From NCBI GenBank assembly GCA_030431975.1, contig JAUIHP010000008.1, positions 1 to 44,317 of the forward strand: DNA of 44,317 nt, written 5' to 3'. Positions 30,172-44,182 of this stretch are shown here, one piece after another. The DNA comes from a bacterium. GTDB taxonomy: Bacteria > Eisenbacteria > RBG-16-71-46 > CAIMUX01. The translations under genes were made by a program, and so were the position numbers. Every line of letters begins with the position of its first letter. Position 1 is the first letter of the stretch. Below the pieces are notes generated by a model. It was given only the letters and a program-made list of their open reading frames with translations, had not been told where the DNA came from and ran no database searches.

Positions 30172-31206
30172 ATGAAGTCGTCCTTTTTCCTGCTCATGCT
30201 TGCGGCCGTCGCCGGCACGCTTTCAACCAAAGTCGCCTACGCGGCAGGCTGTGGCTGAGTGCCCGTCTCGCTCCCCGTTGGGGAGACGTTCAAGCTCTAT
30301 TCACCCGGACAGTTGCGAGTCAGCTACGGCCTGACCTACTCCGACACGGATCACTACTACATCGGCACGGATCGAGATGACGGTCCTGGAGGGATCGAAG
30401 AGCGAGTGGCGCCGGCCACGCTTGGTCTCGAGAACGTTCTTGGCTTGGAATACGATCTGGCCCGTCGCTTCACGGTGGCTCTCGAGATTCCCTTCGTCCA
30501 TACGGAACAGTCGCGGGAGTTCGGCGGAGTCCAGGGTTCGATGGATGCGACCGGGTTGGGTGACATCCGGCTTCTCAGTCGCTACTGGTTCCAGGACGAA
30601 CCGAACGGAGTCCGACTCTTTGGCGGGGCGGGGCTCCGCCTCCCCACCGGTGAGTCGGACAAACAGTTTGAAGCACAGAACGGGATGATGGTCACCCAGG
30701 ATTTGGCGGCCCAGGCCGGAACCGGGAACGCAGCGGGAATCCTCGAGTTGGGTGCCTCAACGACGGTCGCCGAGCGCGTCGGTCTGGCGCTGACGGCGCG
30801 CTATTACTTCACGCCGTCTGCAACCACGGTCCCGAACTTCCGGCATGAACTGACCGGCAACGGCCCGGAGAACAACTCGGATTCCGATGCGTTGTCGACC
30901 CGTTTGACCGCCGCGACGCCTCTTGCCACTTCGGAAGGTTGGCTCAGTCGGATGTCGGCCTCGGCTCATCTCGACTTTGCCTGGGTTCCTTACGACGACC
31001 TCTTTGGCGACACCGAGGGATTTCGTCGTGCCGGCCCGATCGTCCTGTTGGGCCCCGGTCTCTCCTACATGGCGACGGACAGACTCAGTTTGTCTGCCGG
31101 CCTTCCCTTCACGGTCTACCGCGATGTTCAGCAAAACGGCGGCAACGTTCAGGCCTGGACACTGCAGTTCGGTCTCTCCTACGCCGCATTGACGTCATCG
31201 GAGTGA
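30172..31206 (+). CDS. Exported beta-barrel selenoprotein, Sec at residue 29 (in-frame TGA)
   Basis: Read through a TGA at 30256-30258, this is a 344-residue protein. GGGAGGT precedes ATG 30172. Residues 1-24 are a textbook signal peptide (MKSSFFLLMLAAVAGTLSTK then VAYA). The TGA falls five residues into the mature protein, giving A-G-C27-G-Sec29-V. The frame continues without interruption for 315 codons: a barrel-like protein with alternating strands (LRVSYGLTYSDTDHYYIG, LGLEYDLARRFTVALEIPF, GLALTARYYFTPS, LSYMATDRLSLSAGLPF). A hairpin starts 5 nt after the TGA. The true stop at 31204-31206 is also TGA. Calling the gene from GTG 30259 would lose the signal peptide. Cys-Gly-Sec is a plausible redox or metal site. 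First gene of a five-gene operon. Confidence 0.82.
30264..30288 (+). promoter_or_regulatory. Candidate bacterial SECIS hairpin of the barrel selenoprotein
   Basis: CTCCCC (30271-30276) pairs with GGGGAG (30280-30285) around a GTT loop; alternatively an outer stem CGTCTC/GAGACG (30264-30269 with 30283-30288) closes a bulged inner CCC/GGG. The apical loop begins with G, 18 nt after the TGA, within the known bacterial SECIS range. Confidence 0.65.
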
Positions 31207-31210
31207 ATTG

Positions 31211-31486
31211 ATGGACGCGAGAGACACCGGCTCCTCCGATCCCTGGGCCGACTGGCCTGAGGATTGGGATGTGGAGTCCCGGTTTGACGGCGGCGCAGAG
31301 CGCTGTGGCGACATGCTGGTCGACCTGCGCGACCACCTAAGGTCCGAGGCGCCTAAATGTCGCGTAGCCGTCCGTTCTTCCGGCGCCGGAGCTCCCATCG
31401 AGATTCCAGCCTGGTGTCGGATCACACGGCATCGTCTTCTCGCGTCCAAACACCCCTACTACTGGATTGAAGTTCGTACCCAATGA
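31211..31486 (+). CDS. TusA/SirA-like small sulfur-carrier protein
   Basis: A 91-residue protein 4 bp after the barrel gene, with GGAG upstream of ATG 31211. It shows a TusA-like layout: FDGGAERCGDMLVDLRDHL with Cys32 at the carrier-cysteine position, then a beta strand, then EIPAWCRITRHRLL with Cys69, ending in YYWIEVRT. Classical TusA has CPxP after the first Cys; that proline signature is missing. TusA-fold proteins carry sulfur as persulfide, and relatives (YedF) are linked to selenium use. Its N-terminal 25 residues are acidic and Trp-rich. A role in handing sulfur or selenium to the neighbouring proteins is inferred. Confidence 0.75.
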   Translation: MDARDTGSSDPWADWPEDWDVESRFDGGAERCGDMLVDLRDHLRSEAPKCRVAVRSSGAGAPIEIPAWCRITRHRLLASKHPYYWIEVRTQ

Positions 31487-31499
31487 AAGGAAGAAGGAA

Positions 31500-31865
31500 A
31501 TGAGTAACAAGTTTTGCGTCTCGATCACGGAAAGCAAGAAGGACGGAGACATGGCGACGGTCGGTTTCGTCGTCGCCAACGCAGCGCTCGGAAGTGAGAA
31601 GGAGACGATGGTCTTCCTTTCTGCGGACGGTGTGTGGGCGGCCGTCCAGGGCGAGTACGACAAGATCGACGAGGGTCAGCCGTTTGCTCCTCTCAAAGAG
31701 CTGGTCGACAAGTTCGTTGCCGGAGGCGGAACCATCCTTGCGTGCGCGCCTTGCCTGAAGAAGCGCGGAATCGAAGCGGAGAAGCTGATCAGCGGAGCCA
31801 CGCCGGCCGGAGGCGCTGCGCTTGTCGAGTTCCTGGGCGACGGAACTCCCTGCATTACCTACTAG
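31500..31865 (+). CDS. DsrE-family protein with CxxC motif
   Basis: 121 residues from ATG 31500, preceded by AAGGAAGAAGGAA; the frame is open to 31467 but that part lies in the preceding gene. The fold follows DsrE/TusD-like proteins: an N-terminal strand and helix with many small residues (VGFVVANAALGSEKETMVFL), DGVWAAVQG, and GGGTILACAPCLKKRGI with Cys82 and Cys85. These cysteines sit where DsrE-type proteins receive persulfide sulfur. It is 13 bp after the TusA-like gene, so a relay between the two is likely. Cytosolic, no signal peptide. An additional Cys118 lies near the C-terminus. Confidence 0.85.
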   Translation: MSNKFCVSITESKKDGDMATVGFVVANAALGSEKETMVFLSADGVWAAVQGEYDKIDEGQPFAPLKELVDKFVAGGGTILACAPCLKKRGIEAEKLISGATPAGGAALVEFLGDGTPCITY

Positions 31866-31964
31866 CCCGACCTATGATCCCGGCGCAACAGAAGAGGAGC
31901 GGAGTCATTCCAGTTCACAGGCTTTCGGTGGGGCGGAATCACTTTCGTGTAGGAGGAGAATCAC

Positions 31965-32726
31965 GTGGACGAGTCCATTGATCTGACGACTGTCGAGGCG
32001 GCGAAGGTCTTCGACGGCGGTGATCTCGATTGCGGTTCCGGGCTCGTTCTTCTCATTCGGGAGAACATGCTCGAGGTTCCCGAGGGTGACATTCTCGAAA
32101 TGCGCTCGCGGGAGCCGACGGTGGCCGATGACCTCCCTCCCTGGTGTCGAATGGTCGGTCACGACTTTCTCGGGTCGCTTCGTTTGGAGGACCCGGGACG
32201 TCGGGACACGGTTCGTTACTTTGTGCGTCGCGGCAGCGGCACCGTGAAGACGGAGTCCAAGGCTCTGGAAGATGACAAAGCGAGGGCGCAGAGCTACGAA
32301 TGGCGTCTGCGCGTTCGATCCACGGGTCATCTGGAGAGCACGGCCTACTTCCGCAACTTCTCGATTCAGGCGGGGCAACCCGCGAGTTTCGAGGAGAAGG
32401 ATGCGCATCCGTCCTCCGTGGAGCTTCTGTTGGGTGCTTTGGGAACCGCACTGACGACAGGTTTCGCCTCGGAAGTTTCGCGAGCCGGACTTGAAGTCGA
32501 CGACATCGAGCTCACCGTGCGCGGACGCCTGGGGAACCCTCTCGCCCACCTCGGATTGGGTACGGGAGATCCGGCACTGGAAGCGGTAGAGGTCAAGTGC
32601 TTCGCTTCGACGATGGCGGATGAGGGCTCCGTTCGAGACGCTTGGGCGCGGACGGTCGAACGATCCCCGGTCGCCGCGACGCTGGCGAAGGCGATGGACT
32701 TGCAACTGAAACTGGCGATTGTGTAG
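31965..32726 (+). CDS. TusA-like/OsmC-like fusion protein lacking the OsmC cysteines
   Basis: 253 residues from GTG 31965, with AGGAGGAG upstream. Residues 12-70 are TusA-like: FDGGDLDCGSGLVLLIREN with Cys23, and DLPPWCRMVGHDFLG with Cys61. Residues about 110-253 are OsmC-like: HPSSVELLLGALGTALTTGF, LEVDDIELTVRGRL, VKCFASTM, VERSPVAATLAKAM. In OsmC/Ohr peroxidases two Cys act: one in the ALxAC helix and one in a CPxS motif. Here these positions read GTAL (161-162) and RSP (Ser234), so peroxide reduction seems lost. The fused form may use the OsmC fold to bind a small molecule while the TusA part carries sulfur or selenium. Gaps are 99 bp upstream and 67 bp downstream. Confidence 0.82.
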   Translation: MDESIDLTTVEAAKVFDGGDLDCGSGLVLLIRENMLEVPEGDILEMRSREPTVADDLPPWCRMVGHDFLGSLRLEDPGRRDTVRYFVRRGSGTVKTESKALEDDKARAQSYEWRLRVRSTGHLESTAYFRNFSIQAGQPASFEEKDAHPSSVELLLGALGTALTTGFASEVSRAGLEVDDIELTVRGRLGNPLAHLGLGTGDPALEAVEVKCFASTMADEGSVRDAWARTVERSPVAATLAKAMDLQLKLAIV

Positions 32727-32793
32727 GGACTCACGTCTGCGGCCGAGATTCGCAGTTGGATCAACTCCCCTCCGGGGGCGATGGAGAATACCG

Positions 32794-33969
32794 ATGTTCG
32801 ACGTCACGCAGGTTGGAAGTTGGCCGCGGTCCCGTGAACTCCTCGCGGCACTGCGGGACCATCAGAAGGGACGCATTACCAACGAAGAGTTCGAGCGGGT
32901 GGCCGACCAGGAGGTCGACCAATGTGTCGATGCTCAGCTCGAAGTTGGCGCGGACATCATTGTCGACGGTGAGATGCGGCGGGACAGTTTCTATTCCTTC
33001 GTCACGAACAAGGTCGCGGGGACGCGCCTCATGTCGCTGGCGGAGATGCTCGATACCGTCGAGGACAAGGCGAGTTTCGAGGAGATGCTCGCCACCCTCG
33101 ATGTGCCCGCTTCTGCGATCAAGAATCCGACCTGTGTCGGAAAACTCGAGCGGAGAGAACCGCTCGCGGTCCATGAGCTGGAGTACGTCCGTAAGCGAAC
33201 GGACAAGCCGGTCAAGGTGCCGCTGCCGGGGCCTTACCTTCTGACGCGAGCCATGTGGGTGGGCCAGTTCTCCGGCGCAGGGTACAAAGACAAGGTCGAA
33301 ATGGGTGAGGACGTCGTTCGGCTTCTGCAGGACGAGCTGGTGGAGCTGACGGAAGCCGGCTGCGCCTTTGTGCAGTTCGACGAGCCCGTCCTGACCGAAA
33401 TCGTCATGTCCGAGGAAAACGATCGACGAACATTCATGTGAGCGACGCTCGCGACCCGCCGGGATGCGGGTTCAGAACTGGACTATGCTGCGGACCTGCT
33501 CAATCAAATCGTCGATGGCGCCCGCGAACGGGTAGCGGCTGCCGGACTCCGCCTTCCGCGGGTCGGACTGCACGTCTGTCGTGGAAACTGGAGTCGGGAT
33601 GAAAGCGTGCTCCTGACCGGAGACTACACTCCCCTCCTTCCTGCGTTTCAGAAGATGCACATCGATCAGTTCGTGCTCGAGCACTCGACGCCGCGCGCCG
33701 GGGATGTCGAAATCGTCGCGAGGGGACTGGCCGATCGCGAACTGGGTCTCGGCGTGGTCAACCCGAGAACCGCAGTGGCGGAATCGCCGGATGAGATTGT
33801 TCAAAGAGTGGACGAGGTCCTGGCGTTTCTTCCGCCGGAGAAGGTCTTTCTCAACCCGGATTGCGGATTCGGTTGCTTCGCCAATCGTTGTGTGAACGAC
33901 CACGAAACGGCAAAGGCGAAGACCCGTAGCATGGTCGAGGCTGCGAATGTACTACGGGATCGCTACTAG
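32794..33969 (+). CDS. MetE-like methyltransferase selenoprotein, Sec at residue 216 (in-frame TGA)
   Basis: A 391-residue protein when TGA 33439-33441 is read as selenocysteine. Before it: the MetE C-domain start VGSWPRSRELLAAL, IIVDGEMRRDSFYSFV and the FVQFDEPVLTEIV motif. After it, in the same frame: His260 and Cys262 (HVCRGNW), Glu296 (VLEHSTPRAG) and Cys357 (NPDCGFG), matching the zinc ligands of cobalamin-independent methionine synthase; the 61-residue Glu-Cys spacing equals that of E. coli MetE. Without readthrough every zinc ligand is lost. A hairpin starts 12 nt after the TGA. I recall Cys at this position in related proteins, to be verified. It probably transfers a methyl group to a thiol or selenol; acceptor unknown. 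GGAG precedes ATG 32794. Confidence 0.82.
33454..33471 (+). promoter_or_regulatory. Candidate bacterial SECIS hairpin of the MetE-like selenoprotein
   Basis: ACCCGC (33454-33459) pairs perfectly with GCGGGT (33466-33471) around the loop CGGGAT. The loop starts 18 nt after the TGA and has G as its second base, as in the minimal bacterial SECIS pattern. The distance equals that of the first hairpin in the operon. Confidence 0.68.
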
Positions 33970-33977
33970 CCAGTGGA

Positions 33978-34340
33978 CTACTGTTCTAGCGCCAGCATCA
34001 TGAGTCGACCTTCCGGATCCCGAAACGTGACGCATCCGATGGGATTGCCGTCATCGTCGGTGGGGCCGCTGTTTCGGATGTCCTGGGCGCCGCTCTTTCG
34101 CAGGTGATCCAAAGCTGCCGGGAAGTCATCGGTCAGAAAGGTGATCCACGGGCGGTCCCACATCTCGTTCCCGTCGTGCGGGACGACGGCGACTCCCCCA
34201 CGGCCGGCCTCATCCGCAATCGAGTACCAGAACTCGTGGTCCTGGATCCCGGCTTTGGGGCCGAGGAGGGCGGCATAGAACCCTTTCAGTCCGGCGACGT
34301 CCTGGGTGGCGATCGTAAAGTCCGCGATATGAATCCTCAT
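33978..34340 (-). CDS. VOC/glyoxalase-fold protein
   Basis: 120 residues from ATG 34340, with GGAGGAG 6 nt upstream; the longer open frame reaching 34517 has no domain and is not used. A single vicinal-oxygen-chelate domain with paired babbb modules is visible: DFTIATQDVAGLKGFYAALL, FWYSIADEAGRGGVAVVP, WITFLTDDFPAALDHLRKSG, GCVTFRDPEGRLMMLALEQ. The last motif, with Asp-Pro-Glu-Gly-Arg, is typical. It would act as a dimer. Possible roles are metal-dependent lyase, dioxygenase or resistance binding protein; sequence does not decide. It converges with the MetE-like gene across only 8 bp. Confidence 0.9.
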   Translation of the reverse strand: MRIHIADFTIATQDVAGLKGFYAALLGPKAGIQDHEFWYSIADEAGRGGVAVVPHDGNEMWDRPWITFLTDDFPAALDHLRKSGAQDIRNSGPTDDDGNPIGCVTFRDPEGRLMMLALEQ

Positions 34341-35036
34341 TCGTGCTCCTCCGAGTTTCGACCGACCGATGGATCGCCCGACCGCTTCCGTAACCCGCTT
34401 CCGTGACCCGCTTCCATTATCTCCATGTCCTGGTGGGTGACGCTCAAGTGTCTGGCGGACGACCCATTGCCGCGGCGGCCAGAGTAGCCGACGGCTGCGC
34501 GGGATGTGGATCCGCATCAGGCGCAGAGTTTACCGCCACTCCGTAGTTCCGCGCGAGCACACGCACTTGTTCGCGATCCCGCGCGTCGAGGGGGAACGTC
34601 TCAGACGCCGTCACCCGTGCCCCGGTTTTGCGTCTGTGGGAGACGAGTCTGCGCGATTTGCACGTTCCTCAGGCAAACCGCAAGGTCGGCCTCGGTGGGA
34701 AATGCCGGCTGCAGGTTCGAACGGATTTTCTGTTCGCTGCGTATCTGTCGATGGCGAGCGGTGTTAGGGATGAGCGCGGTCGTGATGGGGCCGTTTCTCG
34801 CTCTTTGGCACAGGCCTTTCTACATAGACACCAGAGTCACGAACGGGCCTGTTTTCGCATCCTTGTCTTTGCACCTTTCCGTTCGTGGCCGTCTCTGACA
34901 ACTTACTGGCGTGTTTGTGAACACTCCTGGGCTGCACGGGCCGAATCTTCGAGGGTTTTCCGTTTGTAGTTCGGGCACGGCTAACCGGTTTGAGGTCAAG
35001 AGGCTCTTGATTCTGCCGCCCCTGCGGCGGTAGAGG
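34341..35036. other. Long gene-free region ending at a strong terminator
   Basis: About 700 bp without a convincing protein. Open frames exist but overlap one another, lack ribosome-binding sites and match nothing I know. The 3' part (34850-35036) is less GC-rich and contains a hairpin CTGCCGCC/GGCGGTAG at about 35012-35032, directly before the terminator hairpin. A plus-strand non-coding RNA or a long 5' leader with attenuator is possible. I checked by eye for tmRNA, RNase P RNA, 6S, SRP and tRNA-Sec signatures and found none. Confidence 0.4.
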
Positions 35037-43326: not shown

Positions 43327-43478
43327 GGCAACAGGCTAGCAGAGCCCCAGGTCGGCTCCCAGAGGGACCTGCGCCGCTTTTGGGAGCGCTGCGTGGGGCT
43401 CGGTCCCGACAGATCGGGGTCTTAGGCCGCGGACAAGCGAAGTTTTCGTCTCACAGGACCGATAAGGAGTACGATATG

Positions 43479-43493
43479 TCTAGATGGTCTAGA
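43479..43493. promoter_or_regulatory. Duplicated TCTAGA palindrome, likely toxin-antitoxin operator
   Basis: TCTAGATGGTCTAGA holds two 6-bp palindromes around TGG, 31 bp upstream of the preferred antitoxin start. Phd/YefM-type antitoxins bind such paired palindromes to repress their own operon. The motif overlaps an alternative ATG (43476) that has its own AAGGAG. Confidence 0.6.
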
Positions 43494-43523
43494 TTGCTTC
43501 ACGTTGTAGGAAGGAACTCCTTC

Positions 43524-43763
43524 ATGGAATGGAAACTAGCGGAAGCGAAGAACCGGCTCAGCGAGGTGGTTCGGCGTGCCCTCACCGAAGGACCTCAGCG
43601 CATTTCCCGGCGGGGTGACTCTGTCGTGATTCTGTCCAGCGATGAGTACGACCAGTTGGTCGGAAGGAAACCGAGCTTCAAGGCGTTCCTGCTCGGCGGA
43701 CCGGACATGGCGAGTCTGGATCTCTCCCGTGACAAGAGCCCGATGCGGGACGTGAACCTGTGA
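43524..43763 (+). CDS. Phd/YefM-type antitoxin
   Basis: 79 residues from ATG 43524, with AGGAAGGAA upstream. The N-terminal DNA-binding part is typical of Phd/YefM: MEWKLAEAKNRLSEVVRRAL, then GPQRISRRGDSVVILSSDEY. The short charged C-terminus would wrap and neutralise the toxin. A second in-frame ATG at 43476, with AAGGAG 6 nt before it, would add 16 residues; the family usually begins near the first helix, so 43524 is preferred. The stop overlaps the toxin start by 4 nt (GTGA). Confidence 0.92.
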   Translation: MEWKLAEAKNRLSEVVRRALTEGPQRISRRGDSVVILSSDEYDQLVGRKPSFKAFLLGGPDMASLDLSRDKSPMRDVNL

Positions 43764-44182
43764 GGTCTCTACTTGATACGTGTGTCGTCTCGGAGCTTGT
43801 CAAACCCAGGTGCGACCCTGGGGTCCGAGGCTGCGTCGAGGCGATTCGAGATGAAGACCTGTTCCTGAGCGTCTTGACCATCGGCGAGATCACCAAAGGG
43901 ATCCAATTGTTGAGGGCAAGTCGTCGCAAGGATGATCTTTCCCGTTGGCTGCTTGACCTGCAGCAGAGCTACCGGAGCCGCATCCTCCCGATCGACACCG
44001 AGGCGGCCCACATCTGGGGCGAACTCACGGCCGCAGCCCAGAAGCGCGGGAAGGTGGTTTCAGCAACGGACGGACTGATTGCGGCGACTGCGATTCGTCA
44101 CGGGCTACGTCTCCTGACGCGCAACGAGGCCGACTTCAGCGAAACGGGCGCTATGGTGACGAACCCGTGGTCGGACACTTGA
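43760..44182 (+). CDS. PIN-domain ribonuclease toxin (VapC/FitB-like)
   Basis: 140 residues from GTG 43760 within a GTGA overlap with the antitoxin. The acidic PIN active site is complete: Asp6 (LLDTCVVSEL), Glu43 (TIGEITKG), Asp104 (SATDGLIAATA) and Asp125 (TRNEADF). Such enzymes cut tRNA or rRNA when the antitoxin is degraded. The FitB-like spacing (DTCVVSEL, ITKGIQLL) and Phd-type partner fit a FitAB/VapBC-like system. A strong terminator follows 44 bp after the stop. Confidence 0.95.
   Translation: MRSLLDTCVVSELVKPRCDPGVRGCVEAIRDEDLFLSVLTIGEITKGIQLLRASRRKDDLSRWLLDLQQSYRSRILPIDTEAAHIWGELTAAAQKRGKVVSATDGLIAATAIRHGLRLLTRNEADFSETGAMVTNPWSDT

Follow-up and report, generated by a model that had tools for sequence, protein, structure and literature searches.

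Results

Five genes between two in-frame TGA codons

The DNA analysed here (contig C41:1-44317, 44,317 nucleotides, hereafter the window) belongs to a 6.19-Mb genome of Candidatus Eisenbacteria. As the initial annotation of this DNA had proposed, five plus-strand genes occupy positions 30172-33969, separated by 4, 12, 99 and 67 bases. The first and the last appear to encode selenoproteins, each reading in frame through one TGA with its domain continuing on both sides. The TusA, DsrE and TusA-OsmC carriers said to lie between them were also recovered, by Pfam matches and by the conservation of the carrier cysteines. The features are listed below with the evidence for each (Sec, selenocysteine; SECIS, selenocysteine insertion sequence; L numbers denote homologous loci, and G005 is the nearest operon-bearing relative).

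30172-31206, plus strand: gene 1, outer-membrane beta-barrel channel like PF13557/COG4313, predicted selenoprotein (Pfam; AlphaFold2 fold; TGA kept in G005)
30256-30258, plus strand: in-frame TGA of gene 1, read as Sec (TGA in G005, in a paralog on contig C55, in L041 and in L123; Cys in L114, L073 and L090)
30271-30285, plus strand: SECIS-like hairpin of gene 1, CUCCCC-GUU-GGGGAG (also in G005, where the loop is GUC)
31211-31487, plus strand: gene 2, TusA-like carrier (weak Pfam TusA match below the gathering threshold; operonic homologs at about 60 loci)
31500-31865, plus strand: gene 3, DsrE-family protein (PF02635, 47.9 bits; residue conservation)
31965-32726, plus strand: gene 4, TusA-like domain fused to an OsmC-like domain (PF02566, 38.4 bits, above its cut-off; PF01206, weak)
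32794-33969, plus strand: gene 5, core MetE-like zinc methyltransferase, predicted selenoprotein (PF01717, Meth_synt_2, 120 bits)
33439-33441, plus strand: in-frame TGA of gene 5, read as Sec216 (U or C in 68/68 homologs)
33454-33471, plus strand: predicted SECIS hairpin of gene 5, ACCCGC-CGGGAT-GCGGGT (frozen codons, lost in Cys revertants)

The relative G005 (also L031) is a Candidatus Eisenbacteria genome from another family of the same order. It keeps the whole five-gene order and both TGAs at 54-83% protein identity.

Selenocysteine in gene 5

A G+C-rich hairpin whose loop starts 18 nt past the TGA was confirmed in both gene 1 and gene 5. Taken singly, these hairpins were weak (z of -1.5 and -0.5 against dinucleotide shuffles) and no SECIS family of Rfam matched; the selenoprotein case therefore rests on comparison. 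A homolog scan over 84,980 genomes gave 80 loci. At the column of Sec216, all 68 aligned gene 5 homologs carry Sec or Cys and nothing else, so that homologs with other residues there, which the initial annotation had named as a possible objection, did not appear. The UGA form was found in 27 genes from at least 10 phyla, the window's included, and Cys in all others examined. The ortholog in G005 (76% identity) has TGA at the same codon, and two remoter orthologs in the window's phylum have Cys.

Every UGA-type gene 5 contains the hairpin ACCCGC-CGKGAY-GCGGGT starting 12 nt after the UGA, the last base varying in two of them. Within the hairpin, all 27 genes use the codons ACC for Thr, CGC for Arg and GCG for Ala, and 25 use GGT, whereas the neighbouring codons for Ala, Thr and Leu vary among four or five synonyms. 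In a tree from which an Acidobacteria fragment (L092) was left out, all UGA-type sequences formed one clade (support 99/96), drawn from Eisenbacteria, Planctomycetota, Chloroflexota, Armatimonadota, Pseudomonadota, Latescibacterota, Verrucomicrobiota, Myxococcota and Krumholzibacteriota. A single reversion to Cys was observed inside this clade, in two Verrucomicrobia (L047 and L053), which retain the amino acids ATRRD but encode them by different codons. This indicates that the constraint on the RNA was lost together with the UGA.

These results bear on the possibility that the TGAs are true stops or sequencing errors and that the genes are split or decayed. The unexceptional behaviour of the single hairpins in shuffling would fit this explanation. 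However, 27 independent copies of gene 5 share the UGA and the frozen hairpin, the column holds Cys elsewhere, and the same TGAs recur in independent genomes, so that the sequencing error considered in the initial annotation does not account for them. For gene 5 this explanation is already refuted, and for the locus as a whole it is scarcely credible. By comparison of sequences, gene 5 is almost certainly a selenoprotein, a case near proof short of mass spectrometry.

Selenocysteine machinery of the genome

The four sel genes that the initial annotation suggested looking for were all present. The gene for tRNA-Sec (selC, anticodon TCA) is on the window's own contig, and selA, selB and selD were found in the genome besides. 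This selD (L017, C52:182266-183189) contains an in-frame TGA and is itself a selenoprotein gene; a second SelD with an in-frame TGA, likewise a selenoprotein, was seen at L067:8333-9256. A SelB-like match beside tRNA-Sec was rejected as SelB, being LepA by sequence. Recoding of TGA throughout the genome was also rejected: genes 1 and 2 of the operon both end in a TGA stop, and therefore no genome-wide code change has occurred.

Carrier genes and the conserved unit

The presumed carrier cysteines are well kept. In gene 2, Cys32 and Cys69 are invariant or nearly so (98%), as are Cys23 and Cys61 in the TusA-like domain of gene 4, and the C82-x-P-C85 of gene 3, the CxxC redox motif of DsrE, is present in 61/61 homologs. 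The OsmC domain of gene 4 has no conserved Cys among 60 homologs and lacks the catalytic pair of OsmC/Ohr; accordingly, its sequence makes an Ohr-type peroxidase unlikely. The YedF model TIGR03527 had no match in the operon, where TusA and DsrE are separate genes with CG in place of CP.

Most loci, spread over many phyla, have the TusA, DsrE, TusA-OsmC and MetE genes together, Bacillales with the Cys form included. The conserved unit comprises these four genes, TusA to MetE. Its surroundings point to selenium. Downstream of the operon in Siminovitchia fortis come selD, selA, selB and YedE/FdhT, and in Paenibacillus thalictri the order is YedE/FdhT-LysR-operon-LysR-SelB-SelA. The operon adjoins selD in L066 and selA in L059. 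The neighbouring LysR is of the selenium-metabolism type NF040786 (LysR_Sec_metab), above the cut-off in nine scanned loci. Because such neighbours are present even beside the Cys form of the enzyme, the operon probably does more than use Sec and takes part in selenium metabolism itself, and we regard a role of this general kind as quite likely.

A second arrangement was observed among these loci. In L026, L045, L047, L057, L058, L061-L063, L066, L074, L076, L084 and L087, a Cys MetE-like enzyme accompanies an OsmC-only protein, an Rv1679/FadE16-like acyl-CoA dehydrogenase and an Rv1680-like phosphonate-type binding protein; L045 has both this arrangement and the operon. The next-best match of the Rv1680-like protein was the putative selenate binding protein TIGR04553. 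A literature search on Rv1679/Rv1680 found no paper. In addition, two conserved proteins of about 500 and 180 amino acids with no Pfam match lie beside the operon at L069:2021-4151, L073:108-4237 and L090:8191-12110. YedE is also there in Paenibacillus, while Gallionella and Nitrospinota have a Cys barrel and DsbC.

Predicted active site of gene 5

The AlphaFold2 model of gene 5 has a mean predicted local distance difference test score (pLDDT) of 90.7; by fold it was matched to MetE and to the core synthase 3RPD, a structure solved with selenomethionine. The zinc and homocysteine residues of the MetE/Mes enzymes are listed in PMC7857596. In gene 5, the zinc ligands H260, C262, E296 and C357 and the homocysteine residues S9, E60 and D196, whose positions were mapped through a MetE alignment, are invariant in 68/68 homologs. 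Since all of them are kept, an amino acid of the homocysteine type is expected to bind at the zinc of gene 5. The Sec/Cys216 lies 20 residues past the substrate-binding Asp and ahead of the zinc HxC. The family-specific insertion of MesD contributes Tyr226, which touches the substrate carboxylate (PMC7857596), and by analogy the stretch around Sec216 could plausibly act as a lid.

The same residues, together with the core MetE fold, could also be explained if the operon were a methionine synthesis module, in which gene 5 is a methionine synthase sped by Sec, TusA and DsrE give sulfur for homocysteine, and selenium is only a catalytic gain. However, a full-length MetH is encoded in the genome itself and the metH cut-off is passed in 25 of 35 operon carriers; gene 5 is not the sole methionine synthase of the cell. 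Moreover, gene 5 falls below every methionine-synthase cut-off of NCBIfam (best 174 bits against a cut-off of 406), and its Cys form too adjoins selA/selB/selD/YedE and the selenium LysR, neighbours for which a simple methionine module would have no use. We therefore consider this explanation unlikely.

Probable selenocysteine in the barrel of gene 1

Gene 1 matched PF13557 with 27.2 bits (gathering threshold 22). Its Sec is residue 29, just past the signal peptide, which ends in AYA; the sequence that follows is AGCGU, in which Cys27 and Sec29 form C-x-U. The counterpart in G005 (66% identity) keeps the TGA. Other barrels with an in-frame TGA after the signal peptide are a paralog in the window's own genome (L113, C55:108340-109305; SGQG-U), a gammaproteobacterial barrel adjoining the operon (L041, YAQG-U) and one of an acidobacterium (L123, NAQG-U). 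The profile of PF13557 does not detect the distant Sec barrels L113 and L123. QGC is found at this position in a second own paralog (L114, C55:7109-8260; AQGC), in Gallionella and in Nitrospinota (L073, L090). The column thus holds five UGA (three phyla) and three Cys in an ungapped G-x-G-[U/C] alignment, which gave the better fit and was preferred by judgement over that of MAFFT, where Cys27, not Sec29, is set against the other Sec/Cys. Behind three of the barrel UGAs lie ungapped in-frame hairpins that differ by compensatory changes and share a CGUG loop; the loop of the gene 5 hairpin starts in the same way. The single-sequence energies of these barrel hairpins are unremarkable. Five UGAs at one place also argue against stops or errors in the barrels. 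Taken together, these findings make a strong case that gene 1 encodes a selenoprotein, very probable on fewer sequences than for gene 5.

The best fold matches of the gene 1 model, which is of only fair quality (pLDDT 62.9), were FapF and the COG4313 channel 4rl8. The template modelling score against 4rl8 was 0.72-0.76 depending on the target, with a poorly modelled N-terminus. COG4313 channels have the mature N-terminus inside the lumen, which in 4RL8 is filled by the first 14 residues, and the family is thought to pass non-polar molecules (PMC4493636). By analogy, the channel would also hold Sec29, which lies about 5 residues into the mature chain. In L041 and L127, a Sec barrel is followed by a TlpA/redoxin gene; the coordinates of such genes directly downstream of Sec barrels, in Acidobacteria and Gammaproteobacteria, are as follows.

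L127:8291-8854: TlpA/redoxin-type thioredoxin gene
L129:4154-4729: TlpA/redoxin-type thioredoxin gene

The Cys barrels adjoin DsbC in L073 and L090. Neighbours of either kind fit a redox-active barrel plug.

The C-x-U of this plug could instead be a metal ligand, and operons with several selenoproteins for organometals have been described (SAO, as reviewed in PMC13188914). By analogy with SAO, Sec would bind a methylated metal, demethylation would take place at the zinc site and the carriers would hold the metal. Yet no Sao or Hgc family matched in the operon, the carriers belong to sulfur-relay families and the neighbours are Sec synthesis genes, which leaves organometal handling very unlikely.

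Other genes of the window

Directly after gene 5, a gene on the minus strand (33978-34517) is predicted to encode a small glyoxalase/VOC-like protein. At 43380-44182, two genes with a 4-base overlap resemble a Phd/YefM-type antitoxin and a VapC-type PIN toxin.

Discussion

Proposed pathway

We interpret the locus as a selenium-metabolism operon in which uptake and methyl transfer, preferably in the direction of demethylation, are combined with a selenium relay toward SelD, and give this reading a probability of roughly 0.55. The barrel would admit a small, rather non-polar chalcogen compound past the Sec of its N-terminal plug. The MetE-like enzyme, on the cytosolic side, would bind a homocysteine-type amino-acid thiol or selenol at zinc and move a methyl group between this substrate and the chalcogen compound, with Sec216 taking part as a nucleophile or selenium holder. 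The cysteines of TusA, DsrE and TusA-OsmC would then pass selenium on as perselenide, protected from loss, toward SelD. In the preferred direction, a methylated selenium compound would be demethylated to feed Sec synthesis; this direction, considered by itself, is a tentative choice. Its most specific form is a dedicated acquisition of methylated organoselenium, with a Sec-plugged channel, a Sec methyltransferase acting onto a homocysteine-type acceptor and carriers passing perselenide to SelD, and this too seems doubtful at present. If it were true, the system would be self-reinforcing, with selenoproteins helping to make selenoproteins.

The initial annotation had suggested a selenium/sulfur relay or methyl-chalcogen pathway that links the barrel to the MetE-like enzyme. 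Its selenium side has gained from the neighbouring genes; the pathway itself is consistent with the residues and the gene order, from which we infer substrate, direction and order of carriers. The link between barrel and enzyme held in only two Eisenbacteria genomes, where the two are tightly tied, and the conserved unit lacks the barrel; relatives of the barrel lie nearby in three other loci.

Several observations weigh against the proposed pathway. The barrel is missing from most operon copies. The loop with Sec216 is the least confident part of the gene 5 model (pLDDT 58-80). Demethylation of a neutral selenoether is energetically unfavourable unless the compound is activated. Co-occurrence with selA was rejected as evidence: selA is present in 45 of 50 operon carriers, but it is near-universal in the control groups as well. 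Of the 193 genomes in the Neobacillus family, 172 have selA (at least 48 of the 51 that carry the operon, and about 123 of the 142 that do not), and within the window's phylum 41 of 47 have it. In L073 (Gallionella) and L107 (Bacillus methanolicus), the operon has the Cys enzyme and no clear selA was found in the genome.

The same parts could also run in reverse as selenium detoxification, with excess selenide held on TusA/DsrE, methylated by gene 5 and released through the barrel as a volatile product. The regulator family is selenium-linked, and YedE has been suggested as an exporter (PMC5322559). On the other hand, the operon sits among Sec synthesis genes, not detoxification genes, and has no SAM-dependent methyltransferase. 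COG4313 proteins, moreover, are regarded as uptake channels (PMC4493636). Detoxification is thus improbable, and we retain the relay toward SelD as the preferred interpretation.

Relation to known systems

Delivery of selenium to SelD in vivo is incompletely elucidated, according to a 2026 review (PMC13188914). The operon offers concrete candidate carriers for this step, also in cultured Bacillales beside Sec synthesis genes. Its relatives in at least 10 phyla, some of them beside selenium genes, suggest an undescribed bacterial route to obtain or process selenium. Selenoproteins of the MetE and PF13557 types are missing from the 2026 inventory of 119 prokaryotic families (PMC13188914), a mention in the Haft 2023/2025 papers not being excluded, and none of the families in NCBIfam of June 2026 matches them. 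Two families outside those 119 gain strong evidence of Sec. Its chemistry would be new both to the plug of an outer-membrane channel and to the vicinity of a zinc methyl-transfer site.

Operons with several selenoproteins, and TusA-DsrE selenium proteins, are already known kinds. The SAO and Tso systems of Haft and co-workers, as far as they are outlined in PMC13188914, likewise have several selenoprotein genes per operon; no protein families in common with them were found, with an OsmC_like_Se match below the cut-off as the only resemblance. Gene 1 is like the COG4313/PF13557 channels (Pput2725, 4RL8) and FapF in its predicted barrel fold and in the N-terminal segment before strand 1, whereas the gene 1 barrels differ in having Sec/Cys a few residues into the mature protein and, in several loci, TlpA/redoxin or DsbC neighbours. 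Gene 5 resembles the core methionine synthases MesA-MesD and the C-terminal domain of MetE (PMC7857596) in fold, four zinc ligands and three homocysteine residues, and differs from them by the extra loop with an invariant Sec/Cys, the selenium gene neighbourhood and the curated scores below cut-off. Lin et al. (2015, PMC5322559) described YedE, YedF (FdhT/FdhU) and LysR_Se without mention of the operon's genes. With their module the operon shares the TusA and DsrE domains, and a selenium LysR regulator and YedE/FdhT are also found in its neighbourhood in L067 and L069. In contrast to that module, the operon has TusA and DsrE as separate genes without CPxP, and adds to them the TusA-OsmC fusion and the Sec/Cys MetE-like enzyme.

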